Position numbers and translations under genes: made by a program
Origin: Sulfurimonas sp. HSL-3221
GTDB taxonomy: Bacteria; Campylobacterota; Campylobacteria; Campylobacterales; Sulfurimonadaceae
DNA length: 64,000 nucleotides
Assembly: GCF_021044585.1 (NCBI RefSeq)
Contig: NZ_CP087998.1
Location: forward strand, 496,001-560,000
Direction: 5' to 3'
Shown: positions 7,895-44,189 of the stretch, one piece after another
Numbering within the stretch: the first letter of the stretch is position 1
Layout of the letters: each line of letters begins with the position of its first letter
The notes under the pieces: generated by a model
What the model was told of the DNA's origin: nothing
What the model saw: only the letters and a program-made list of their open reading frames with translations
The model's database searches: none

Positions 7895-9241
7895 TCAGCG
7901 CGGGAACTTGCCGCCCTGCATCTGGCTCATCATGTTCTGCAGATCCTGCATCCCTTTTTTGCCGGAGAATTTCTTGGCCATCTTTGCGGCGTTTTTGAAC
8001 TGCTTGAGGATACGGTTGACGTCCATCTGGTCCATCCCGGCCCCTTTGGCCAGACGCTGCTTGCGGCTGTTGTTGAGCAGGTCGGGGTTCTCGCGCTCTT
8101 TGGGGGTCATGGAGCTGACCAGCGCCTTGATCTGTTTGAGTTCCTGGGAGTTCTCCAGGTCGAAGTCCTTGAGCGCCTTGGACATGTCCCCCATGCCCGG
8201 GATCATCCCCAGCAGGGATTTCATGGAGCCGAGCTTCTTCATGCTCTCCATCTGCTCGAGGAAGTCGTTGAAGTTGAACTGCCCCTTCTTGATCTTCTGG
8301 GTCAGTTTTTTCGCCTGCTTCTCATCGATGACGCTTGAGGCCTTCTCTGCCAGCCCCTCGATGTCCCCCAGTCCCATCAGGCGGTTGACGATGCGGTCGG
8401 GGAGGAAGATTTCGAGGTCCGCCATTTTTTCACCGGCACCGATAAAGCGCAGCGGCACCTGAACCTGAGAGGCGATGCCCAGCGCGACGCCGCCTTTGGC
8501 GTCACCGTCGTATTTGCTCAGGATCACTCCGTCGATCCCGATCTGCTCTTTGAAGCTCTGGGCGGTGCGGACGGCATCCTGCCCTGTCATGGAGTCGGCG
8601 ACGTAGAAGATCTCGCTCGGCTTGGCGGCGTCGCGGACCTGCTTGAGCTCCGTCATCAGCTCCTCGTCGATGGCCAGGCGTCCGGCCGTATCGACGAGCA
8701 CGACGTCGTAGAGGTTGCTTTTTGCTTTGGCCATGGCCGCCGTGACGACCTCCACCGGGTTCTTGGTCGCCTCGTCTTCATACAGGTCGACGCCGATCTG
8801 CTCCGTGATCTGGCGGAGCTGTTCGACGGCGGCCATACGCTGCAGGTCCGCCGCGACGATGAGGACCTTCTTCTTTTTCTGCTCTTTGAGGTAGGTGGCG
8901 AGTTTCCCCGTCGTCGTCGTTTTTCCCGAACCCTGAAGGCCGGTCATCAGGATGACGGTGGGGGGATTTGCCGCAAAAACGAACCCCTGGTGCCCTTCGG
9001 TTTTCAGCAGGTCGTGCAGGGTGAAGCGCATCGCGTCAAGGAACTGGTCCTTGCCGATACCGGCTTTCTTCGTATCCAGTTCGACGCGGTCGATAAGCTC
9101 TTTGACAACCTTGTGATGGACATCGGCTTTGAGCAGCGCTTTTTTCAGTTCGACAAGCGCTTTCTTCAGCGCCTTTTCATCGTCGTGGAAGCGGATCTTT
9201 TTAATGGCGGACGTAAACGAATCCGTCAGGGTATCAAACAC
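7895..9241 (-). CDS. ffh: Signal recognition particle protein Ffh
   Basis: GTPase that binds signal sequences and 4.5S RNA and targets membrane proteins co-translationally. 448 aa: N-domain helices (1-85), G-domain with the P-loop GLQGSGKTTTTGKLA (~107-121), DTAGR and TGQDA motifs (~190-230) and a SKYDGDAKGG block (~245), then the methionine-rich M-domain (310-448, ending KGMQDLQNMMSQMQGGKFPR) with the RNA-binding loop around SRKQRLAKGAGM. Complete. It has its own promoter region upstream at ~9314. Confidence 0.97.
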   Translation of the reverse strand: MFDTLTDSFTSAIKKIRFHDDEKALKKALVELKKALLKADVHHKVVKELIDRVELDTKKAGIGKDQFLDAMRFTLHDLLKTEGHQGFVFAANPPTVILMTGLQGSGKTTTTGKLATYLKEQKKKKVLIVAADLQRMAAVEQLRQITEQIGVDLYEDEATKNPVEVVTAAMAKAKSNLYDVVLVDTAGRLAIDEELMTELKQVRDAAKPSEIFYVADSMTGQDAVRTAQSFKEQIGIDGVILSKYDGDAKGGVALGIASQVQVPLRFIGAGEKMADLEIFLPDRIVNRLMGLGDIEGLAEKASSVIDEKQAKKLTQKIKKGQFNFNDFLEQMESMKKLGSMKSLLGMIPGMGDMSKALKDFDLENSQELKQIKALVSSMTPKERENPDLLNNSRKQRLAKGAGMDQMDVNRILKQFKNAAKMAKKFSGKKGMQDLQNMMSQMQGGKFPR

Positions 9242-9960: not shown

Positions 9961-11982
9961 ATGAAACAATCACTACGTGGCGTTCGGGGTATTATGATGT
10001 CAAGTGCCGTGGGGGCGGCACTTCTGCTTTCTGGATGTGGTTCATCAACCTCCACAACAGCGACATCAGGTACCGTAGTCGGTGCCGAGCAGGCAACGGC
10101 ACTTGTCGGCACGCTTGAATGTGTGCTTGGTACGGCTACCGGCACGCTGACCAATGTTCTTAGCGCAGCTGATCTCAGCATCCTTACTTCCATCCCGCTC
10201 GACCTTGCCTCTGTTGCCAATGCGATGGTGGAACTCGGACTGACAACAACGGGTGTGACTGTCGGCGCTATGCTGGAGACAAGCGTATCTCTTAGCAATG
10301 TACTCGATATCATCGGCCTCGTCGGCGGCACGCCGGACGTTCTGGCAATCGTTGCCTCTATTAAAGATGCACTGGACCCGGCTACACTGCTGCAGACACT
10401 GCCGCTGGGCGACCTGCTGAGCGTTGCACCGAGCCTGCTGACACAGGTCATTGGCACGCTTGTTGATACGACTGCCGGTGTCGCAGAGACAGGGATCGAT
10501 GCTCTGACCTTCCTGGATGATACGGTCATGGGTGTCGGTTACGATATCGCTGCCTGTATCCCGCAGCTTGAGCCTGTCGTTGCAACGCTCGACTGTGCGA
10601 CAAACAGCGTACTGGGCGGTGCAACACTGACAGCAGAAAACCTGAAAACACTTGCGGTTGCCCTGCCGCTCGGCGACCTGCTCGGTGCCGTTCAGAGTTT
10701 GACAGGCCTGGCGGATACCGCGACACTCTCTGACCTTCTCGCCGCTCCGCTTAGCGCAGGCGACCTCCTCGGTATCCTTGGTTCACTGACCGGTGATCCG
10801 CAATCCGTCCTTTCAGATCTGACAGGCGCACTTGATCCGTCCCAGCTGACGAACATGCTGAGCCTCGGCGACCTTATCGTTGCACCGCAGGAACTCCTCG
10901 GTACGACACTCGGCACCCTGCCGGCAACCCTGCTGACAACGACAACGGGTCTGCTCGGTACGGTCGAAGGTCTGCTTGCTCAGGTGACAGGCGACCTGAC
11001 ATCTTGTCTGGATCCGAACCTGCTGGTCGGTTCACTGACAAGTCTGCTCGGTGCGCTCCCGCTGAATGGCGGCGCGCTTCCGCTGGATCCTGCAGGGCTT
11101 CTGAGCCTGGTCAGTGCTGACACGACGATCAATGACATTATCGCTGCGGCGAAAACACTGCCGGTCCTCAACGCGCTTCCGCTCGATGAGCTGATGGCGA
11201 CGAAACTGAGCATCGCCCAGCTGATGGATATTATCAATGCACTGCCGATCCCTGCACCGGTATCTACTGTGCTGACAACAGTATTGGGTGCCGTGCCGGA
11301 TCTGAACCTGCCGGCACTTTCACTGAACGACATCCTTGCGCTGCCGGGTGAAGTTCTGCCATTCGGTATCGATCCGATGGATACAAGCATCAACGGCCTC
11401 CTGACGACATCTGTCAACATGCTGGCCCTGCTGGAATCCGTAGCGCACGGTCTGAATGCTGAAGGAACAGCCTTCCTGCTCAACGCCGGTGTTGTTATGC
11501 CTGTTGTTACAACGATCGACAAGCTCGGCGGGTATGCGATCCTCGGTGGTCTGATGACCAACGTGCCGTACCTGACGCAGACACTGCCGCTGGGTGACCT
11601 GACAGGTCTGCTTCTGAACGGTGCGACTCCGACCGATCTTGGTGATCTCAGCAACCTGGTCGGTACGATCCTGGGCAGCGGTGATCCGACCGGTGCGCTT
11701 ACAAGCATCCTGAGCACGCTGACAGGTGCATCTTCCGGTGATCTCCTCGGCCTGCTCGGCGGGGACCTGCTGGGTTCACTGACCGGTACGCTCTCGGATC
11801 TGCTCAACAGCCTTGGCGGCAACCTCCTCGGCGACCTGCTGACAACACTGACAAGCCTGCTCGGCGGAGCTGATGCCTCTGCGATTACTGACCTGCTCGG
11901 CGGCCTGACAACAGATCCGACTGCACTGCTGCAGACGCTGCTTGGCCTGCTCAACGCTCAGGGCCTTGCCCTCCCGCTCTAA
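9961..11982 (+). CDS. Large leucine/threonine/glycine-rich lipoprotein with GDLL repeats
   Basis: 673-aa predicted outer-membrane lipoprotein. The signal peptide MKQSLRGVRGIMMSSAVGAA ends in the lipobox LLSGC (Cys26). The rest is low in Lys/Arg and aromatics and is built of degenerate repeats around LPLGDLL, for example LPLGDLLSVAPSLLTQVIG, LPLGDLLGAVQSL, LSLGDLIVAPQELLG and LPLGDLTGLLLNG. Cysteine motifs (TLECVLG, TLDCATNS, DLTSCLDP) recur at the boundaries of larger ~150-170-aa units. The last 120 residues are almost pure GDLLGxL repeats. A related block occurs in both Ig-like lipoproteins downstream. The ATG at 9961 has AAGGA upstream; an earlier in-frame ATG (9907) would mask the signal. 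No known family recognised; a structural or adhesive role is an inference. Confidence 0.8.
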   Translation: MKQSLRGVRGIMMSSAVGAALLLSGCGSSTSTTATSGTVVGAEQATALVGTLECVLGTATGTLTNVLSAADLSILTSIPLDLASVANAMVELGLTTTGVTVGAMLETSVSLSNVLDIIGLVGGTPDVLAIVASIKDALDPATLLQTLPLGDLLSVAPSLLTQVIGTLVDTTAGVAETGIDALTFLDDTVMGVGYDIAACIPQLEPVVATLDCATNSVLGGATLTAENLKTLAVALPLGDLLGAVQSLTGLADTATLSDLLAAPLSAGDLLGILGSLTGDPQSVLSDLTGALDPSQLTNMLSLGDLIVAPQELLGTTLGTLPATLLTTTTGLLGTVEGLLAQVTGDLTSCLDPNLLVGSLTSLLGALPLNGGALPLDPAGLLSLVSADTTINDIIAAAKTLPVLNALPLDELMATKLSIAQLMDIINALPIPAPVSTVLTTVLGAVPDLNLPALSLNDILALPGEVLPFGIDPMDTSINGLLTTSVNMLALLESVAHGLNAEGTAFLLNAGVVMPVVTTIDKLGGYAILGGLMTNVPYLTQTLPLGDLTGLLLNGATPTDLGDLSNLVGTILGSGDPTGALTSILSTLTGASSGDLLGLLGGDLLGSLTGTLSDLLNSLGGNLLGDLLTTLTSLLGGADASAITDLLGGLTTDPTALLQTLLGLLNAQGLALPL

Positions 11983-12288: not shown

Positions 12289-14946
12289 ATGCAATTGTTT
12301 TTGCAAACGAAGAAGGGGTTGGCACTCTTCCTCGGCATGGCGATGATGTTCATGCTGGCGGGATGCGGTGCAGACAGTGCCTTTGACAACAATGTCAAGG
12401 GTAGTGGTCTTGAGGTGACCGTTTCGCCTGCCGACGGGGCAACGGACGTTTTCCTCAATACGGACATTACGGGAACGTTTAATAAGGATCTCCAGCAGGC
12501 AACGTTGATCGAGGGGACAACGTTTTACCTGCTGGACCCGAACGACAGCATGGTGCCGGGGTCGTGGTCATACCTGAACAAGGTACTGCGCTTCAAGCCC
12601 GATGCTAATCTGACGGCGAACACCACCTACCGGTTCGTCATTACGAACGGCATCAGAGCGACGGACTACTCCCGTCTGGGCGGTGACGTCGTCACGCAGT
12701 TCACGACCGGAACGGGTCTGGGGCTTAACGTCACGCTCAATCCGCAGCAGGGCGACAGCAATGTCTCGCTCAATCCCAATATCACCGCGACGTTCAACGA
12801 GCCGGTGGATCTTTCAACAGTCGATGGCAATAGCTTCTATCTGCTCGATGGAAACAGCGTGAAAGTACCGGTGACGAAGATCGACCACACCGATGATAAC
12901 ACGACGTTGATCTTGAAACTTGCTTCCAACCTGGCGCCGTTCAGTACTTACACCACCGTCGTGACGACGGCTGTGTCGGCACCGAACGGACATACGCTCG
13001 CCGCTAACGAGACGGCCATGTTCGTGACGGGCAACTGGCTGCGCCTTGCCGTGACGATCATGCCGTCCGACGGTACGACAGGTGTGCCGATCAACACGAT
13101 GGTAACCGCCACCTTCAACAAACCGATGGATCTGTCGACGCTCAATTCGGGCAATATCTACCTGATGGATGAAAACGGCACCCACGTTCCGGGTACGCTG
13201 CATACGGCAACGGATGCGAGCGGCAATACGGTCGTGACCTTTATCCTCGATCCAGGTACGACGCTGGTTCCGAACAGCGATTACACCTTCATGGTCGAAA
13301 ACGACGTGACGTCCCTCGACGGCGAACAGCTGGGTACGGATGAGACATCGACCTTCACGACGGGCACCCAGACTGAGCTGCAGGTCTACATCGTCCCGAT
13401 GGATGGCGCGACAGGCGTTCCGGTCAGTGACGATATCGTCGCCTACTTTAACGAGGACGTCAACGAGACGACCCTTGATGCCGCGACCTTCTATCTTGAA
13501 AATAGCGGCGGCGGCCTGCTGCCGGGTACGATCGGCTATGACAGCGGCAACTATATCGCCGTCTTCAACCCGGATGCGAACCTGACGGCGTACAACACCT
13601 ACACCTTTACGGTGACAACGGGGGTTGCGGCGGTCAACGGCGACACACTTGCCAGCGACGTGAACTCAACATTCACAACCGGCAACCTGATCCGCGTCAT
13701 CGATGCGGCCGTCTTCAGTATGGGCACTACTGCCGTGGCAGCCGATACAAACGAATCGGCCCTCAACGGTGTCACGGGCAATCTGCTCGGGACAAATATT
13801 TCCCTGGGCGTCGATGGCGTGCAGGGACTGGTTGCGGCGACGATCAACTACGAGGGACTGGTGGCCGCACTCAGCGGGGAAACCAATTCGACGACGGTAC
13901 AGGAGCTCGTGGACAGTAACGTCAGTCTGACGACACTGCTGCAGATTATTTCCGATCAGATGCCGGCAGGACCGGGTAAAGATGCTGTGGATCAAATTGC
14001 GCAGGCTGTGGCTGACCAGGGCCTTGATCAGCCGGTAGCTATCGGGGACCTGTTGCAGTTCCCTGATAGTGTTCTCCCTGCGAATGTGACAGATGTTCTG
14101 GCCATGGATGGTATTTCGGCGGCAGAGGCGAATGTGGTCTCTGTGTTGAGTTCGGTTAATGCTGCACTGGCTCCGATTACACAAAGTGTTATCGAGATTC
14201 CACTCTCCATTCCGGGATTGACTGACGGTAACAGCACGCTTCGTGCGCAGCTGGTGAGTCCGCCGACAATTGCGCTGATGGTTCCGGGGGATACGATCCG
14301 CGCTTCCCAGGCAAGAATTCAGCTGAAGCTTACACTGACCGGTTCGGCGCTTACAGACCTGTTGTCGCTGCTTGGGCTCGGCACAGATGCGATCCTCAAT
14401 ATCCCGCTGTATATCGTGCTGGGTGCCGCTGAAGGCAACTTGACTACGCTTTCTGTTGACGATGTCGCGATGGCGGTACAGAACGGGCTTGCCTCAATCT
14501 ACCTCGGGACGATTCCGGATGATCAGTTCTTCTCCGATCAGCCATTGACGGCTGACAGTTTCGCACCGGTAGACCTTATCAATCTGCTTGGGCTTGCAAC
14601 CGTGACTGCCAAGGCGTATGCTGTCGGGGATTCGAACAATACGACGATGCACTTCTTGCCGATCAATGTACCGCAGATGGAGAGTGCCTTCGCACCGTTG
14701 GGAGATACGACAGGCTCATTGCTGGGAACATTGACAAGCAACCTTGAGCTGCAGGTGACACTGCTTGGCCTTCCGTTGCTTGATGTCAGCGCGCTTGCAG
14801 GGGCGTTGAGCGATCTGCTTGTGAACACGCTTGCACCGGCGTTGTCGCCGATCCTGAATATGCTGAGTGGCGCGCTCGGAGCGTATAGCGGTCAGGCCGA
14901 TGTCACGATGCTGAGTCTGATCGAGCACTATATCGAGCAGCCGTAA
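12289..14946 (+). CDS. Lipoprotein with four Ig-like (Big_5/SbsD-type) domains and a hydrophobic C-terminal module
   Basis: 885 aa. The signal peptide ends in the lipobox MLAGC (Cys26). Four Ig-like domains of ~100 residues follow (about 42-141, 144-247, 248-358, 364-464). Each opens with a pattern like VTVSPADGATDV, has an FNKDL/FNEPV/FNKPM/FNEDV strand and closes with FTTGT or VTGN, which is typical of Big_5 domains. Residues 465-885 form a second region rich in LL, GDLLQFPDSVLP and VLSSVNAALAP, ending in a hydrophobic stretch; this part is shared with the paralogue at 16671 and more loosely with the leucine-rich lipoprotein. The OmpA-family gene 57 bases downstream is likely co-transcribed. 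GAAGGAG precedes the ATG. Probably a cell-surface or periplasmic scaffold; function unknown. Confidence 0.85.
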   Translation: MQLFLQTKKGLALFLGMAMMFMLAGCGADSAFDNNVKGSGLEVTVSPADGATDVFLNTDITGTFNKDLQQATLIEGTTFYLLDPNDSMVPGSWSYLNKVLRFKPDANLTANTTYRFVITNGIRATDYSRLGGDVVTQFTTGTGLGLNVTLNPQQGDSNVSLNPNITATFNEPVDLSTVDGNSFYLLDGNSVKVPVTKIDHTDDNTTLILKLASNLAPFSTYTTVVTTAVSAPNGHTLAANETAMFVTGNWLRLAVTIMPSDGTTGVPINTMVTATFNKPMDLSTLNSGNIYLMDENGTHVPGTLHTATDASGNTVVTFILDPGTTLVPNSDYTFMVENDVTSLDGEQLGTDETSTFTTGTQTELQVYIVPMDGATGVPVSDDIVAYFNEDVNETTLDAATFYLENSGGGLLPGTIGYDSGNYIAVFNPDANLTAYNTYTFTVTTGVAAVNGDTLASDVNSTFTTGNLIRVIDAAVFSMGTTAVAADTNESALNGVTGNLLGTNISLGVDGVQGLVAATINYEGLVAALSGETNSTTVQELVDSNVSLTTLLQIISDQMPAGPGKDAVDQIAQAVADQGLDQPVAIGDLLQFPDSVLPANVTDVLAMDGISAAEANVVSVLSSVNAALAPITQSVIEIPLSIPGLTDGNSTLRAQLVSPPTIALMVPGDTIRASQARIQLKLTLTGSALTDLLSLLGLGTDAILNIPLYIVLGAAEGNLTTLSVDDVAMAVQNGLASIYLGTIPDDQFFSDQPLTADSFAPVDLINLLGLATVTAKAYAVGDSNNTTMHFLPINVPQMESAFAPLGDTTGSLLGTLTSNLELQVTLLGLPLLDVSALAGALSDLLVNTLAPALSPILNMLSGALGAYSGQADVTMLSLIEHYIEQP

Positions 14947-14967
14947 CAGATAGAATAGAGAATGAAA

Positions 14968-14984
14968 ACGGGGCCATGCCCCGT
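14968..14984 (+). other. Intercistronic hairpin between Ig-like lipoprotein and OmpA-family genes
   Basis: ACGGGGC/GCCCCGT form a 7-bp perfect stem with a 3-base loop just upstream of the OmpA-family Shine-Dalgarno sequence. There is no T-tract, so it is more likely an mRNA processing or stability element that tunes the ratio of the two proteins. Confidence 0.45.
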
Positions 14985-15003
14985 GAAAAGAAGGATAATA
15001 ATA

Positions 15004-16239
15004 ATGAGAAGATATTCATTGGCAGCGGCAGCGCTTTTGCTCACCACTGCGGCGTATGCTGATTTCCCGGCGAAACGCATTGCCTTCCCGGGGTTCTATA
15101 TCGGGGGCAATGTCGGTTACGCGACCGGCCGGGTAAATGAGACCGATACGGCCGAGGAAGCGTGTAACGGCGATCCGGCCTGTACCGTGATCAACTCCAC
15201 CATTGACGAGAACGCTTTCGGACTGAAGCTGTTCGGAGGTTACCTCTTTAACGACTTCTTCGCCATTGAAGGGGGCTATTTCAACCTCGGCGAGCTTTCG
15301 TTCAAACACGATACGAGTACGGGGGAGACCTATAAAGGTACCGCGAAGACGCAGGGGCTCAATGCCGACGTGGTCGGACACCTTCCGATCCTGTCCCAGC
15401 TGACCGCCTTTGCACGCCTCGGTGTGATGTATGCCGAAGTCAGCAAAGACTACTCCTACAGTGGCGGCACGCTCTATGTCAATGGCGTCGCGAAAGACAT
15501 GAGTCCCAGCCAGTGGGGTGCGGGCCTGAAAGTCGGCCTGGGCGTGCAGTATGACTTCACACCCCGCCTCGGTGTCCGCGGCGAATGGGAAGGCTACCAC
15601 ATGGAGGAGGACGCTTCCAATTCCGGTCTCGATATGAGCCTCTGGTCCGTCGGTGTCGTCTACCGCTTCGGAGAAGATCCGAACGCACCGGTCCCGCCGC
15701 CGGAGCCGGAAAAAGTCGTCGTGGTCAAAGAGGTCCCGGTCCCGGCCGAACCTGTTGTTGTCGAAAAAGTCGTCGAGAAAGAGGTCGTCAAAGAGGTGCC
15801 GTCGGAACCGGTCATCATCCGGAAGCCGGTTGAACGCGTCGTCCTGGCGACGGATGCACTCTTCGACTTCAACAAGGCTATCGTGAAACCGGAAGGTAAA
15901 GCTGCGATCAGAGACCTCGTGGTCAAACTGCAAAAAGACGACAAGCTGATCGTAACGGGCCATACGGACAGCATCGGTTCTGAGCTGTACAACCTCAAAC
16001 TGTCACAGCGCCGTGCCGACGCGGTCAAGAACGAACTGGTCATCAACGGCATCGACGCCGACCGTATCGAAACGAAGGCCAAAGGGGAGAGCGATCCCGT
16101 CGCGACGAATGCGACCGATGAGGGGCGCGCGCAGAACCGCCGCGTTGAAATCGACATCATCGCTGCGCCGAAAGAGCCGGGGGAAGAGATCACACCGCCG
16201 GCGGATGAAGTTACCCTCCCCGCAGGGGAAACGAAGTAA
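15004..16239 (+). CDS. OmpA-family protein (beta-barrel plus peptidoglycan-binding domain), copy 1
   Basis: 411-aa outer-membrane protein. Signal peptide MRRYSLAAAALLLTTAAYA; an eight-strand-type barrel from ~25 to 225 (GFYIGGNVGYATGR, LFGGYLFNDFFAIEGGYFNLGELS, LGVRGEWEGYHM, SVGVVYRFG). A C-x5-C pair in an extracellular loop (ACNGDPAC) may form a disulfide. A V/K/E/P-rich linker (KVVVVKEVPVPAEPVVVEKV) spans ~237-275. The C-terminal OmpA domain (~286-392) has GHTDSIGSELYNLKLSQRRA and NRRVEID. The ATG at 15004 gives the signal peptide and has AAGGA upstream. Paired with the Ig-like lipoprotein gene; the pair is duplicated downstream. Confidence 0.9.
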   Translation: MRRYSLAAAALLLTTAAYADFPAKRIAFPGFYIGGNVGYATGRVNETDTAEEACNGDPACTVINSTIDENAFGLKLFGGYLFNDFFAIEGGYFNLGELSFKHDTSTGETYKGTAKTQGLNADVVGHLPILSQLTAFARLGVMYAEVSKDYSYSGGTLYVNGVAKDMSPSQWGAGLKVGLGVQYDFTPRLGVRGEWEGYHMEEDASNSGLDMSLWSVGVVYRFGEDPNAPVPPPEPEKVVVVKEVPVPAEPVVVEKVVEKEVVKEVPSEPVIIRKPVERVVLATDALFDFNKAIVKPEGKAAIRDLVVKLQKDDKLIVTGHTDSIGSELYNLKLSQRRADAVKNELVINGIDADRIETKAKGESDPVATNATDEGRAQNRRVEIDIIAAPKEPGEEITPPADEVTLPAGETK

Positions 16240-16670: not shown

Positions 16671-18698
16671 GTGAAGACGTCTAAGTATAAGTGGGGGCTG
16701 GCCGGCATCCTTGGCATGGCAATGGTGTTGATTTTAGCCGGGTGCGGACGCGACAGCGCGTTTGACGACAATGTCAACGGTGGTGAACTTCAGGTGACGG
16801 TTGATCCGTCCGAAGGAGCGGTCAATGTGCCGATCAACAAGCTGATCACGGCGAAATTCAACAAAGAGATGAATGTATCGACCGTGAACGATTCGACATT
16901 CTATCTGCTGGATGAGAACGGCACCAAAGTCTCCTCGACGATCAAATTCTACGGTACGGATACCAAGCTCTTTACCTTGACGTCCAATGCGGATCTTGTG
17001 ATGGATTCGAATTACACCGTCTATGTCACAAGGGGAGTCAAAGCGAGTGACGGCTACCTCCTCGCGGCGGACAATATCATCCGTTTCCGTACGGGCACGC
17101 TGAAATATCTGCAGGTCACGGTCCTGCCCAATGACGGCGACACCAACGTCTCCATCGGCGTACATATCCTGGGGAATTTCAATGAAGCGGTCAATACGGC
17201 GACACTGAACAGTACCAACGTCTATCTGCGCGAGAGCAACGGTAGCTTTGTCAACGGGACGATCAACTACAGCGATGTCGGCGATGATCACCTCATGACC
17301 TTCACGCCGTCGGTTCCGCTTGATTACAATGCGACGTATACCTTCACGATCAAGCAGCCGGTGACGTCTCTCACCGGACTGCAGCTGGAATATGACAGCG
17401 TGAACAGCTTTACGACAGGGCCGATGAAGGTGGTCCAGGCGGCTGTCTTCTCTATGGCGTCGACTCCGGTAACGGTTGACACGAACAATTCCGAGGTACT
17501 CGGCAGTGTGCTCGGCGGTCTGTTGGGGACGCAGGCATCGGTGGACCTCCTGGGGTCCGGGGGGCTGGCCGGCGTTAGCCTCGGCTTCCCCAAACTGGTC
17601 TCGGACCTTGTCGATGTCGTGTCGGCATCAACGGTCGAAGACCTGGTCGACAGCAATGTGACGCTCGACGCGATGCTGAGGCTCATTGCCGATGAGCTGG
17701 AAGGGCTCGATGCCGCCGAGGCACATCAGCTCGTGACCGATCTGAGGGCAGAGGTCAACGCCTCCGGTCTCAGCGATACGCCGATCAGTGTGGGCAGTCT
17801 GCTCCAGTTCCCGGTCGATACGCTGCCGATGCAGGTGAATGATGTGCTGTCGATGACGGGCCTCTCCGCGGCGCAGCTGAGTGTTCAGTCGCTGTTGGGC
17901 GGCATCAACCAGGCGCTTGCGCCGGTACTGAACGCCCCGATAGAGGTACCGCTCTCCCTGCCGCTTCTGACGGATGAAAGCAGCGGCCTGAAACTCCAGG
18001 TCATTACACCGCCGGCAATCGCCGTGATGAAAGAGGGCGATACGATCCACTCCGCATCGACACGTCTGCAGCTTAACCTCAAAGTCGGGGGCATCCTGGG
18101 GGATCTTCTCGGAGCGCTGAATACGTCGCTGGACGGCGAAGGAGCAGTGAGTGCCGACCTTATCAACCTGCCGCTTTACCTTGAGCTTGGCTCGTCGGAG
18201 GCTAACCTGACGGTCCTGAACAACGACGAGATCGCCATGAATGTTCGCAACGGATTGGCCACACTTGTGATTGGTACAATCCCCGAAGATCAGTTCTTCT
18301 CGCAGCAGCCGATTTCGCCTGAGGATGTCGGCAGCGCCGATCTCGTCAATCTCCTGGGGCTGGTGAAGATCACCGTGAAGGCCTATGCATCGGGCGTGGC
18401 TGACAGCGGCGGAATCAACTTCCTGCCGGTCGATATGCAGCAGATGCAGAGTGTTTATGCACCGACGGGGTCGACAACGGGCGCACTGCTCAATACGCTG
18501 GTAAGCAATCTGGAACTGACAATCAATCTGCTGGGCATCCCGATTGATGTGAGTGGGCTGCTTGGAAGCCTGCTCGACCCGCTGCTGTCGATTCTGCTGC
18601 CGCTGCTGTCACCGCTGCTTGACTCGGTCACAGGACTGCTGGGAGCAAGTATCGGCAAGGCGGACGTGACCATGATGAGTCTGATATACGGGAACTAG
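16671..18698 (+). CDS. Lipoprotein with two Ig-like (Big_5) domains, paralogue of the 12289 gene
   Basis: 675 aa. The signal peptide ends in the lipobox ILAGC, followed by GRDSAFDDNVNGGELQV, nearly the same leader as its paralogue (GADSAFDNNVKGSGLEV). Two Ig-like domains (~38-141 and ~143-249; closing motifs RFRTGTL and SFTTGPM) replace the four of the paralogue. The C-terminal module (~250-675) aligns throughout: VQAAVFSM, VEDLVDSNVTLDAML, ISVGSLLQFPVDTLP, IPEDQFFSQQPIS and the hydrophobic end. GTG at 16671 is preferred over TTG at 16668 because AAGGAG then sits 6 bases upstream. The difference in Ig number suggests domain loss or gain after duplication. Confidence 0.85.
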   Translation: MKTSKYKWGLAGILGMAMVLILAGCGRDSAFDDNVNGGELQVTVDPSEGAVNVPINKLITAKFNKEMNVSTVNDSTFYLLDENGTKVSSTIKFYGTDTKLFTLTSNADLVMDSNYTVYVTRGVKASDGYLLAADNIIRFRTGTLKYLQVTVLPNDGDTNVSIGVHILGNFNEAVNTATLNSTNVYLRESNGSFVNGTINYSDVGDDHLMTFTPSVPLDYNATYTFTIKQPVTSLTGLQLEYDSVNSFTTGPMKVVQAAVFSMASTPVTVDTNNSEVLGSVLGGLLGTQASVDLLGSGGLAGVSLGFPKLVSDLVDVVSASTVEDLVDSNVTLDAMLRLIADELEGLDAAEAHQLVTDLRAEVNASGLSDTPISVGSLLQFPVDTLPMQVNDVLSMTGLSAAQLSVQSLLGGINQALAPVLNAPIEVPLSLPLLTDESSGLKLQVITPPAIAVMKEGDTIHSASTRLQLNLKVGGILGDLLGALNTSLDGEGAVSADLINLPLYLELGSSEANLTVLNNDEIAMNVRNGLATLVIGTIPEDQFFSQQPISPEDVGSADLVNLLGLVKITVKAYASGVADSGGINFLPVDMQQMQSVYAPTGSTTGALLNTLVSNLELTINLLGIPIDVSGLLGSLLDPLLSILLPLLSPLLDSVTGLLGASIGKADVTMMSLIYGN

Positions 18699-18748: not shown

Positions 18749-19930
18749 ATGAAAATGAAACGGATAGCCGCGACGGCGGCTCTCGTCGCGGTGGCGGTGC
18801 AGGGGCAGGCGGTCGAACGCATCGCGATGCCCGGGCCTTACCTCGGGGTAAATCTCGGATATGCGACCGGTTCGGTCTCCATCTCCACGACCGAACAAGA
18901 GGTGTGCCAGGGAGACCCGACCTGTTATGTGGCAAATTCGACGGCAGACGAGGAGGTGTTCGGCGTCAAAGCCTTCGGCGGTTACCTCTTCAATCAGTAC
19001 TTTGCTGTTGAAGGGGGGTATTTTAACCTGGGTGAACTCTCGTTCAAGGATGTCACCAATACCGGAGAGGTCTATAAAGGCAAGCTCTCGGGACAGGGGA
19101 TCAACATGGACGGGCTCGCCCACCTCCCGCTCCTTAACGCCCTCACCGTCTTTGCCCGTATCGGGGTGCTGTACGCGGGGATGAGCAAGAACTACACCTA
19201 CAGCGGGGGCACCCTGCTCGTCAACGGCGCGCCCAAAGATATGCATGTGACCGAATGGGACGTCGGCTACAAGCTCGGTGCCGGCGTGCAGTACGATTTC
19301 ACCCCTGCCCTCGGCGTACGCGCTGAATGGGAAGGGTATCACCTCGCCGAAGCCGGGTCCAGGTCCGATTACGACGTGAACCTCTACTCTCTGGGGGTTG
19401 TTTACCGATTCGGCATCCCAGAGCCGGAACCCGAAAAGATCGTCGTGGTCAAAGAGGTACCGGTCCCCGGCGAGGGCACGGTTCTGGAAAAAGAGGTCGT
19501 CAAAGAGGTGGAAGTCGTCAAGAAGGTCGAGGTCATCAAAGAGGTACCCAAGCCTGTTATCATCAAAAAACCGACAGAGCGTGTGGTCCTGGCATCGGAT
19601 ACCCTCTTCGATTTCGACAAGTCCATTGTGAAGCCGCAGGGCGATGCCGCGCTGAAACAGCTCTCCGGAAGGCTGCAGAAAAATGACCGCCTGGTCGTTG
19701 TCGGCCATACGGACAGCGTCGGGACGGAAGTGTACAATATGAAACTCTCGCAGCGCCGCGCGAATGCCGTCAGAAGCAAGCTCGTCGCCCTCGGTATTTC
19801 GCCGAGAATGATCGAAACCCGTGCGATGGGCGAAAGCCAGCCGGTGGCGACGAACGCGACCGACGAGGGGCGTACCGCGAACCGCCGTGTCGAGATCGAG
19901 GTCTACGCCGCTCCCAAAAAAGAGCTGTAG
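18749..19930 (+). CDS. OmpA-family protein, copy 2
   Basis: 393-aa paralogue of the 15004 product with the same plan: signal peptide (ending near QGQA), barrel (YLGVNLGYATGS, GGYLFNQYFAVEGGYFNLGELS, VRAEWEGYHLAE, SLGVVYRFG), conserved loop cysteines (VCQGDPTC), a V-K-E linker (KEVEVVKKVEVIKEVPKP) and an OmpA C-terminal domain from ~286 with GHTDSVGTEVYNMKLSQRRA. It lacks the acidic/proline tail of copy 1. It starts at ATG 18749 after AAGGAAAG, 50 bases downstream of the second Ig-like lipoprotein gene. Probably links the outer membrane to peptidoglycan; partnership with the lipoprotein is inferred from the duplicated gene order. Confidence 0.9.
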   Translation: MKMKRIAATAALVAVAVQGQAVERIAMPGPYLGVNLGYATGSVSISTTEQEVCQGDPTCYVANSTADEEVFGVKAFGGYLFNQYFAVEGGYFNLGELSFKDVTNTGEVYKGKLSGQGINMDGLAHLPLLNALTVFARIGVLYAGMSKNYTYSGGTLLVNGAPKDMHVTEWDVGYKLGAGVQYDFTPALGVRAEWEGYHLAEAGSRSDYDVNLYSLGVVYRFGIPEPEPEKIVVVKEVPVPGEGTVLEKEVVKEVEVVKKVEVIKEVPKPVIIKKPTERVVLASDTLFDFDKSIVKPQGDAALKQLSGRLQKNDRLVVVGHTDSVGTEVYNMKLSQRRANAVRSKLVALGISPRMIETRAMGESQPVATNATDEGRTANRRVEIEVYAAPKKEL

Positions 19931-41958: not shown

Positions 41959-42048
41959 AAAGAGTATGTCACGGCAGATAGCAAAGACGACGACATCATT
42001 AAGGCTATCCTGCACTGTCTTAGGACGGTGAAGCCGAAGGTGTTGTGA
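41959..42048 (+). pseudogene. Diverged duplicate of the last ~30 codons of mfd
   Basis: Translates as KEYVTADSKDDDIIKAILHC then LRTVKPKVL and a stop, against KEYVTADSKDDDDIIKAVLH YLRTAKPKVL at the end of intact mfd (one Asp codon missing, four substitutions). Most DNA differences fall in third codon positions (TAT/TAC, ACG/ACC, GCA/GCC, GAT/GAC, ATT/ATC, GCT/GCC), so the piece diverged as a working gene in another lineage before it arrived here. Upstream of the Lys codon similarity ends. Marks the left edge of the TIR-caspase module. Confidence 0.85.
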
Positions 42049-42104
42049 CGTTTAATTAGAGTGACCCTAACCTTCATCCCACCTCTGAAGAGATGGGGGA
42101 AAAG

Positions 42105-42236
42105 TTATTTACCTTTTGACTTGTTTGAGTCACCACCACCCATTGATTCAGAAGGTTTTTTATCAAGTCCACGTTGACCATAGCCAGTTCCTGGCTTAAC
42201 AATTGGCTTCGTAGGCTTCTCTTTCTTATCTGCCAT
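42105..42236 (-). CDS. Possible internal translation product: 43-aa tail of the membrane protein
   Basis: Within the membrane-protein frame, ATG at 42236 (MADKKEKPTKPIVKPGTGYG...) is preceded by GGAGAGAA, with GGAG 8 bases upstream. The start falls a few residues after the last helix, so a soluble copy of the hydrophilic tail could be made. Comparable internal starts occur in some toxin/defence genes; here it is only a sequence-based possibility. Confidence 0.25.
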   Translation of the reverse strand: MADKKEKPTKPIVKPGTGYGQRGLDKKPSESMGGGDSNKSKGK

Positions 42237-42788
42237 GATATTCTCTCCATTTTGCTGAATTGTAATCATTGTACTTGCAGCTAGTATTAGTAATAAGAGC
42301 AATGATAGAATCGTAGTAACAACAGCTTTTCTAATTAATCTAGCTCTACGTATGATATTAATTCCATTATATCGAACCGCACGTTCTGCACCATGCATCA
42401 TCGTTAAAAGACCTTGAGTTTTTGTCCAAGAATTATCAGGAATTTTGGACATTAGAAAAATTCGTTGATCTACTCCATAATTAGTAAACTTTCCAAGTCG
42501 CATTCCAAAAAGAGCTATTAAAATACTCGTAAGCGACATAACAAAAAATGGAATTACAATCCAAAGTAATGCGCCATTTTCTGTAACTTTGAACGAGATG
42601 CCTATTAAAACAACATTGAGCCAAAGGATGGTTTTGATTATATTAAATTGATGTGGAATGGAGGAACCTAGTAAAAGGTCCAATTCTTTTCGAATAGCAT
42701 CGTAATGTAATCTAAGATTGTGCTCATAGCTCTCGATATGTTGTTTATCTAATTCTTTTTTGAGCTTCTGTTCATCGCGGAATTTCAT
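42105..42788 (-). CDS. Three-helix membrane protein of a TIR-caspase module (possible effector or regulator)
   Basis: 227 aa. Charged N-terminal helix (1-40), transmembrane hairpin (~50-67 and ~73-96), a ~55-residue cytosolic loop, a third helix (~154-175) and a 50-residue hydrophilic Lys/Gly/Ser tail (KKEKPTKPIVKPGTGYGQRG ... SKGK). The plan resembles SLATT or PycTM membrane effectors of signalling-based phage defence; I cannot assign it firmly. Third gene of the AT-rich operon, 43 bases after the caspase gene. A good Shine-Dalgarno and ATG inside it could also make the tail alone. Not part of the two-gene TIR-caspase system I know of. Confidence 0.75.
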   Translation of the reverse strand: MKFRDEQKLKKELDKQHIESYEHNLRLHYDAIRKELDLLLGSSIPHQFNIIKTILWLNVVLIGISFKVTENGALLWIVIPFFVMSLTSILIALFGMRLGKFTNYGVDQRIFLMSKIPDNSWTKTQGLLTMMHGAERAVRYNGINIIRRARLIRKAVVTTILSLLLLLILAASTMITIQQNGENIMADKKEKPTKPIVKPGTGYGQRGLDKKPSESMGGGDSNKSKGK

Positions 42789-42831
42789 TGTGGCAAATAC
42801 TTTCTTTCACTTGCATACCAAAAAATCATAT

Positions 42832-43791
42832 TTATATTCTGTTATTATTGACAAGATTCCAGTAATGGACACCGAGTGCCGTCAATTTGCAACCTGTCGA
42901 ATGCATTGCTGCATAGTACATATGTTCTTCTTTCACAGGAACGACTAAATTAATACGATTATATTTTTGAAGAATTCTAAACTTTTCAATGTTTTCATCA
43001 TCCGGATTGTCACTATCAGGTTCAAAACTAGGATCTAAAGCAAATTCAACTCCTGGTTCATCAAATAACTCAACAATTTTTTTGAGATCTGTTAATGCGA
43101 TTGGTGGTTGTACTTTTCTCAGAGTGGTGAAGGTTTTTACATTGGTTTTAAATATTGGACGTTGTTCCCACGGACCAAGTGACTGATCAATGTGCGCGTA
43201 AATACTGCCAGGCGTTATATCTCCAACCAAGTTTGAAGCACTTCCGTTTAAAGCATCAACTAGTAAAGTTGTAAAGACTCCAGATCCATTTTTTTCTTCA
43301 GCATACTGAGTACTGCTTGATGCCGTTAAAATGGTAAGACCCTCTTTCAATAAAGCGCTGTTTCCTGTAGATGCTGGAGTTCCTGCGATGCCTGAATGAC
43401 AACTATCTAAAATTATGATCTTGTTTTTAGCTGGTGAGTCATTAGCTATAGTCAATAAGTTGTCAAGTGAAAAGCCATCGTCTCCACGCGTACATTCAGA
43501 AGTAACAAGGTAACCACCAGTATTCTCAATATATCCATGACCCGCAAAATAAAAAAGTGCGATATCATTATCGTCTTTGAAAAGTTCTTCCACACTATCT
43601 TTTAATTTAGCTCGACTAATTGCATTTGTTGGGTTAGATGCAGTTTCATGTCGAGCAGAAAAATTTAATGATCCATCACTATGTCTTTCTAAAATACTTT
43701 TGACTGCATATGAGTCATTGACGCAACCAAAAAGTGATGAAAGATTTTCATAGTAGTCAATTCCTACAATTAATGCTTTTCTCATATTCAA
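42832..43791 (-). CDS. Caspase-like (peptidase C14) protease, type IV Thoeris-like effector
   Basis: 319 aa. Caspase fold at ~1-190 with the His loop IALFYFAGHGYIEN (His85) and Cys loop IIILDSCHSGIAG (Cys131). A C-terminal domain (~225-319; LKKIVELFDEPGVEFALDP, ILQKYNRINLVVPVKEEHMYY, LTALGVHYWNLVNNNRI) could be the ligand-sensing part. Next to a TIR gene this matches type IV Thoeris (recalled from 2025 work): the TIR makes N7-cADPR, which activates the caspase to digest host proteins and stop phage. ATG overlaps the TIR stop by four bases. No signal peptide, so cytosolic. Codon use is AT-rich, unlike neighbouring core genes. Confidence 0.88.
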   Translation of the reverse strand: MNMRKALIVGIDYYENLSSLFGCVNDSYAVKSILERHSDGSLNFSARHETASNPTNAISRAKLKDSVEELFKDDNDIALFYFAGHGYIENTGGYLVTSECTRGDDGFSLDNLLTIANDSPAKNKIIILDSCHSGIAGTPASTGNSALLKEGLTILTASSSTQYAEEKNGSGVFTTLLVDALNGSASNLVGDITPGSIYAHIDQSLGPWEQRPIFKTNVKTFTTLRKVQPPIALTDLKKIVELFDEPGVEFALDPSFEPDSDNPDDENIEKFRILQKYNRINLVVPVKEEHMYYAAMHSTGCKLTALGVHYWNLVNNNRI

Positions 43792-44189
43792 CCCCAGTCA
43801 CGAATTGCTTTTGCAATTGAGCTAGATTGCCATTTTACAATTACATCCGCGTTATCTTTGACAATTGTCGAAGTCTTTTCTGCACCCCATGGTTCGATAG
43901 CAATTATTGGCTTTCTATATGCGACAGCAATGTCAATTTCTTTGTTTATCCACTTGCTATATGTTGAATATACTCCAGCAAGGATCAATATGCAACTAGT
44001 TCCTTTGATTTTGGCATCAATCGCTTCTCTGAGTTGCTTGTCCGTGCCATTTGTATGAATTGGGTCATGTCTTGGGACGGAGTGATCGTAAAAACTAATC
44101 CCTTGATTCGCAATCATTTGAACAACCTTGTCATATGCGTCACTATAGGCCCATGAATGACTGATAAACAATCTATACGTTTTTGACAT
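43788..44189 (-). CDS. ThsB-like TIR-domain protein (MTH538/DUF1863 type)
   Basis: 133-aa stand-alone TIR-like domain: RLFISHSWAYSDAYDKVVQM (~6-25), DHSVPRHDPIHTNGTDKQLR (~35-54), IDAKIKGTSCILILAGVYST (~57-76) and SKWINKEIDIAVAYRKPIIAIEPWG (~78-102). Glu84 in the WINKE segment is the expected catalytic residue for NAD processing in ThsB-type proteins. Likely senses phage and makes a cyclic ADP-ribose signal for the caspase encoded next to it. First gene of the operon; AAGGAAAA precedes the ATG. AT-rich, apparently horizontally acquired. Confidence 0.88.
   Translation of the reverse strand: MSKTYRLFISHSWAYSDAYDKVVQMIANQGISFYDHSVPRHDPIHTNGTDKQLREAIDAKIKGTSCILILAGVYSTYSKWINKEIDIAVAYRKPIIAIEPWGAEKTSTIVKDNADVIVKWQSSSIAKAIRDWG

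Follow-up and report, generated by a model that had tools for sequence, protein, structure and literature searches.

The question raised by this locus is what kind of lipoprotein is encoded at position 9961, Pfam, NCBIfam and PDB sequence searches having returned no match for it, and whether it is related to the two Ig-like lipoproteins encoded downstream, with which the preliminary description had proposed that it shares a block of sequence and a fold outside the usual domain lists. The window, by which we mean the whole stretch of 64,000 nt analysed here, comes from Sulfurimonas sp. HSL-3221 (GCF_021044585.1, NZ_CP087998.1, positions 496,001-560,000 of the forward strand), and the three lipoproteins, at 9961, 12289 and 16671, are referred to as P0001, P0002 and P0003, respectively (Table 1). 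Comparisons extended to 8 genomes of the genus, 228 of the family and 397 of the phylum. Lipoboxes were called by inspection of the three sequences, without a predictor, and the genes flanking the locus (ffh and a pseudouridine-synthase-like gene) were named by reading their sequences.

Table 1. Features discussed in the text, in window positions except for the Tad locus in the last row
Feature	Position	Strand	Basis or content
P0001, predicted tandem TadG-type helical modules	9961..11982	+	673 aa lipoprotein, lipobox Cys26; orthologs in 5 of 8 genus genomes
P0001 module 1, residues 46-190	10096..10530	+	combined HMM at 40-185, 16.1 bits, i-E 0.0014; self-alignment with module 2
P0001 module 2, residues 205-335	10573..10965	+	self-alignment with module 1, 0/300 shuffles
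P0001 module 3, residues 355-503, best match	11023..11469	+	HMMER E 1.1e-6, whole-genome search, profile without a P0001 row
P0001 counterpart LNDILALPGEVLP of the shared block	11323..11361	+	aligned to VAIGDLLQFPDSVLP of P0002; in register in profile alignments
P0001 C-terminal Gly/Leu-rich stretch, residues 526-673	11536..11979	+	self-alignment to module 2, 0/300 shuffles
P0002, lipoprotein with 4 Big_5 Ig-like domains and C-terminal TadG-type ectodomain	12289..14946	+	Big_5 209.6 bits; TadG-only HMM E 1e-29
P0002 TadG-type ectodomain, residues 470-876	13696..14916	+	BLASTP, hhalign, TadG-only HMM
Block GDLLQFPDSVLP of the preliminary description in P0002	14044..14079	+	aligned with TadG
OmpA-type outer-membrane protein 1	14962..16239	+	family search
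P0003, lipoprotein with 2 Big_5 domains and C-terminal TadG-type ectodomain	16671..18698	+	Big_5 96.7 bits; TadG-only HMM E 1e-30
P0003 TadG-type ectodomain, residues 254-670	17430..18680	+	BLASTP, hhalign, TadG-only HMM
Block GSLLQFPVDTLP of the preliminary description in P0003	17793..17828	+	aligned with TadG
OmpA-type outer-membrane protein 2	18749..19930	+	family search
Complete Tad locus of G021	L101 2094-11226 (G021:C81)		Flp, RcpC/CpaB, secretin, CpaF-type ATPase, two TadB/C-type, TadE, TadG

The C-terminal domain of the Ig-like lipoproteins

P0002 and P0003 (lipoboxes MLAGC and ILAGC) are Big_5 lipoproteins (PF13205, cut-off 23.6 bits), whereas P0001 has no Big_5 domain, and their C-terminal ~415 aa are, by sequence comparison, homologous end to end with the ectodomain of TadG, a minor pilin of Tad/Flp (type IVc) pili. 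When plasmids were searched with P0003, they yielded a Roseinatronobacter protein annotated as TadG-related (WP_277807302.1, E 3e-5), a pilus protein which sits in a Tad locus with CpaF-family, two type II secretion F-family, TadE/TadG-family and cpaB neighbours. For wider comparison we used a reference set of 11 intact TadG-type proteins from plasmids, some taken from records without annotation, which omits a Sinorhizobium TadG (L051) whose annotation splits it into two genes. In BLASTP comparisons, 8 of these 11 match P0002 and 9 match P0003 at E < 1e-3, several of them across the whole region, and hhalign of the two C-termini against the 11 ectodomains gave 99.8% (E 2.3e-29) over 389 columns. 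An HMM built from TadG alone matches the whole domain in both lipoproteins (Table 1) and, at 3e-37, in an SdrD-like surface protein of Deinococcus, which was omitted from the HMMs.

Unlike TadG, P0001-P0003 possess a lipobox and Ig stalks or tandem copies, and are without the Tad pilin segment (PF13400/PF07811 gave no match in any of them at E <= 1) or a Tad locus. Pfam domains in the TadG proteins scanned are limited to the pilin part and a short Tad_C segment that follows it, and NCBIfam holds no model for the ectodomain. The earlier proposal of a fold outside the usual domain lists is borne out in this respect, the domain concerned being the TadG ectodomain, and the block first noticed proves to be part of a much larger domain with homologs outside the genome, whole in P0002 and P0003 and predicted in P0001 as its helical half. 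Structure adds little here: a PDB search with the domain profile retrieved no relative of solved structure (best E 0.72), the AlphaFold model of the P0003 C-terminus reached a mean pLDDT of 50 and retrieved nothing from the PDB with Foldseek at E <= 0.001, and that of P0001 (mean pLDDT 35, helices only, no sign of a solenoid) was unusable. Because the predictions are this poor, there is no fold comparison for or against the relationship. A search of phages found no relative of the P0003 domain, and matches to P0003 from within the order but outside the genus end at or before residue 321, that is, in or just past the Ig region.

A second detached TadG-type ectodomain is encoded on plasmid P1 of Deinococcus gobiensis (WP_145975430.1, SdrD B-like; L045 3311-6361). 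As in P0002 and P0003, the ectodomain is full and no Tad N-terminal segment was detected; the protein differs from them in its Sec-type signal peptide (by inspection), its SdrD_B and DUF11-type repeats, the lack of a lipobox by eye, and its origin in another phylum.

P0001 repeats and the helical half of TadG

P0001 is, as first described, a lipoprotein (lipobox LLLSGC) rich in Leu (23%), Thr (12.5%), Gly (11.7%), Ala (10.4%) and Asp (6.5%) and poor in Lys (0.9%) and Arg (0.3%), the last two making up 1.2% of the protein, with 57 D/E against 5 K/R in its mature form. Its dN/dS lies between 0.05 and 0.22 in all 10 ortholog pairs and it is therefore a real gene. On the opposite strand lies a 324-codon open frame (window 10980-11954, minus strand), probably a by-product of codon bias. 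The GDLL elements are not an effect of composition: GDLL occurs 6 times (shuffled mean 0.28) and the looser LPLGDLL-type pattern 9 times (mean 1.2), counts that none of 2000 shuffles reached. These elements had been taken for the repeated unit itself; the pattern stands, but the true repeat, as we read the self-alignments that had been suggested for defining its length, spans ~145-155 aa and holds about four such elements.

Four segments of P0001 align with one another (44-200, 202-350, about 357-506 and 526-657), and three of the six segment pairs score beyond all 300 shuffles, namely 44-200 with 202-350 (score 140; shuffled maximum 87), 200-350 with 350-520 (score 92) and 200-350 with 520-673 (score 135; shuffled maximum 96). 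The remaining three are weaker, their scores being reached by 2, 18 and 64 of 300 shuffles, the latter two for the C-terminal stretch against modules 1 and 3, respectively. Besides the lipid Cys, C54, C199, C212 and C349 are invariant in the five P0001 orthologs and mark the borders of units 1 and 2, which suggests disulfides.

The block that P0001 was thought to share with the Ig-like lipoproteins is significant with profiles and not by pairwise comparison. BLAST of P0001 against P0002, P0003 and TadG gave nothing significant; the best pairwise E values were 0.005 (P0002) and 0.085 (P0003), and the local alignment scores were reached by 14 and 58 of 500 composition shuffles, respectively. A combined HMM, built from the TadG ectodomains with rows for P0002 and P0003 and none for P0001, matched four of the 397 phylum genomes, all of the genus, and reported, in addition to the P0002/P0003 genes, P0001 in three of them, always at about residues 355-502 on model positions 20-161 and, in the window's own genome, at E 1.1e-6. 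Run on the five orthologs, it gave 27.9, 27.6, 26.0, 24.5 and 3.6 bits, the last (L013) being marginal, with matches at 40-185, 222-322 (weak, in three orthologs) and 355-503 whose model positions overlap (10-161). Against the 27.6 bits of P0001, none of 3000 shuffles exceeded 6.0, and the five reversed sequences went unreported; the likeness thus survives correction for the composition bias that might have produced it.

Support is uneven along the protein (Table 1). For module 2, the weak HMM domain (221-322) appears in three of the five orthologs and not in the window's own P0001, and hhalign places residues 222-380 on the same profile columns. The C-terminal stretch has no domain match on the helical half of the profile and is possibly a degenerate fourth module; it is the fastest-evolving part of P0001, with dN between the window and L011 of 0.19 against 0.05-0.08 for the modules.

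In the reverse direction, an HMM of the P0001 units recovered, at E < 1e-3, all five P0002 orthologs (E 1e-7 to 2e-4) and two of the 11 intact TadGs (E 7.5e-5 and 6.9e-4), and missed P0003 and the other nine TadGs. With hhalign, the units scored 42.6 against TadG alone (80%, E 1.4e-5; maximum 19.9 in 300 shuffles, 15.2 reversed) and 39.7 against P0002/P0003 alone (shuffled maximum 25.0, reversed 15.5), and inclusion of the TadG of G021, a family member discussed below, in the TadG profile gave 85% (E 6e-6). Whole P0001 scored 43.2 against the joint profile (maximum 26.0 in 300 shuffles, 28.1 reversed), 25.8 against TadG alone, slightly above its reversed control (20.5), and 27.6 against P0002/P0003 alone, below its reversed control (36.0). 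HMMs of TadG alone and of P0002/P0003 alone each reported none of the five P0001 orthologs.

Taken at face value, the missing pairwise significance, the failure of both single-source HMMs, the comparison outscored by its reversed control and the strong composition bias would fit an independent Leu/Gly/Thr/Ala/Asp-rich helical repeat protein that converged with TadG on an amphipathic LxLxxLL pattern, leaving only P0002 and P0003 as true relatives. We regard such convergence as improbable, given that composition-preserving shuffles and reversals fall far below the observed scores for the joint profile, the combined HMM and the unit hhalign, that the main placements of P0001 land on the same profile columns, and that P0001 adjoins a TadG-type gene in every cassette examined. 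The modules of P0001 are, in our judgement, very probably homologous to the N-terminal helical half of the TadG ectodomain, of which P0001 would carry several copies and no other part, though these alignments make the link weaker than that of P0002 and P0003 and one that needs profiles to be seen. A plasmid search found no relatives of P0001. Weak matches to P0001 in two genomes outside the genus, G075 (E 4.8e-4 and 4.8e-5) and G251 (E 4.8e-4), were discounted, since no ORF of either genome was matched by the combined or the unit HMM.

Gene order and a Tad locus in the same family

In the window and in G004, G005 and G007, the genes are ordered P0001-P0002-OmpA-P0003-OmpA between ffh and the pseudouridine-synthase-like gene, the cassette being kept in at least four of the eight genus genomes and P0001 present in five. 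The lipoprotein genes have OmpA and housekeeping genes as neighbours and lie outside any Tad locus. Across the eight genus genomes, a search confined to PF13400 (Tad) and PF07811 (TadE) found neither, the Caulobacter control being positive. At the ffh site, a comparison in which G001 and G002 were incompletely resolved, G010 (another genus) has ffh and the pseudouridine-synthase-like gene 40 bases apart with nothing between them, and G006 (same genus, without P0001) holds other genes; we therefore place the gain, or loss, of the cassette at a single site. In the fifth cassette, that of the AP10.010 MAG (G003), both P0003 and the second OmpA gene seem cut short or interrupted (L013 13994-15441 / L007 16565-18012), perhaps through decay or through faulty assembly. 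Identity between P0002 and P0003 is about 46% in the part that they share, and the arrangement of each followed by an OmpA gene resembles a two-gene unit duplicated in tandem. Between window positions 9240 and 20000, Rfam gave no match and promoter- and terminator-like sites were uninformative. Elsewhere, window positions 42001-44000 have a G+C content of 36% against ~57% in their surroundings and are possibly foreign DNA.

The domain profile matched six of the 228 family genomes, five of the genus and G021, of another genus and the only family genome outside the window's genus with a TadG-type ectodomain; in this search the combined HMM did not report P0001 of G007 or of G003. G021, a bin 81% complete with 7% contamination, has a complete Tad locus (Table 1), and because a gene close by on the Tad contig shares 81% identity with its counterpart in the genome of the window, this contig can very probably be assigned to the family. 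The TadG of G021 shows 36% identity with P0003 over 426 aa (E 6e-51) and 30% with P0002 (E 3e-34), shares with them, as does the Roseinatronobacter protein, the whole post-pilin ectodomain, and is sister to the P0002/P0003 clade in an unrooted tree (support 1.000); its segment VGDLLQLDVDTKAL is the counterpart of the blocks GDLLQFPDSVLP and GSLLQFPVDTLP. A lipoprotein beside the G021 Tad locus that resembles the start of P0001 by eye was supported by neither BLAST nor four HMMs.

That the nearest relative found is the TadG of a Tad locus in the same family, that Tad- and TadE-family genes are gone from the genus and that one cassette of five (the AP10.010 MAG) has a truncated-looking P0003 and second OmpA might together be read as a decayed Tad locus, in which a TadG stripped of its pilin part is drifting. 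We consider this highly improbable: P0001 is under purifying selection, a lipoprotein signal and Ig stalks replace the pilin part, and the genes are duplicated and retain their order in at least four genomes.

A proposed role for the pilus-tip domain away from the pilus

In published AlphaFold models, TadG occupies the pilus tip with its modular C-terminal domain exposed, and the exposed domain of its Myxococcus homolog KilN has been suggested to serve in recognition (PMC12075869); for CpaL, the Caulobacter TadG ortholog, which has a vWA domain, a part in mechanosensing at the tip has been proposed (PMC12607857). The likeness of KilN and CpaL to the present proteins is one of role class, each being a large minor pilin whose modular C-terminal domain is predicted to lie at the tip, and the vWA domain of CpaL was not found in P0001-P0003. 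By analogy, P0002 and P0003 may present such tip domains on Ig stalks anchored in the envelope.

The reading that we favour, with some reserve, is of a pilus-independent adhesive or contact layer of lipid-anchored TadG-type domains, in which P0001 supplies an array of the helical half. P0002 and P0003 would be lipid-anchored surface proteins that display the ectodomain on an Ig-like stalk, and P0001, likewise lipid-anchored, would repeat the helical half in tandem three or perhaps four times, the beta-rich half having been lost. All three lipoproteins would lie in the outer membrane, the OmpA proteins would tie the layer to peptidoglycan, and the TadG-type domains would bind as at the pilus tip, P0001 being either a spacer or a partner to the helical half in the same contacts.

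The two OmpA-family proteins of the cassette would also suit a periplasmic envelope scaffold in which P0001-P0003 are bridged to peptidoglycan and have no adhesive role; the OmpA family binds peptidoglycan, and lipoproteins in many bacteria face the periplasm by default. Such a scaffold seems unlikely to us, since Ig stalks and tip-type ectodomains are, we infer, typical of exposed proteins, and the Deinococcus plasmid protein pairs the same domain with the SdrD_B and DUF11-type repeats of a surface protein.

Beyond the contact layer favoured here for Sulfurimonas, we suggest tentatively, as an idea that could well fail, that the Tad tip domain escaped from pili to become a general surface module, deployed in Ig-stalked lipoproteins, in the Deinococcus SdrD-like protein and in a lipoprotein of helical-half repeats, and giving rise to a contact or adhesion layer without pili. 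What is new is the occurrence of a known pilus-tip domain in pilus-free architectures, of which the accessible parts of the open-access literature on TadG or Tad pili with lipoproteins, Ig-like domains, Campylobacterota or Sulfurimonas give no account. The comparison defines a domain that Pfam and NCBIfam leave uncovered, and connects orphan surface lipoproteins with the working end of Tad pili, which is poorly understood. To our knowledge, the TadG subtype found here has no known ligand; its pilus-free forms would lay ligand and structure open to study without the pilus machine and, if our reading is true, would give cells that lack pili a fixed contact or adhesion layer.
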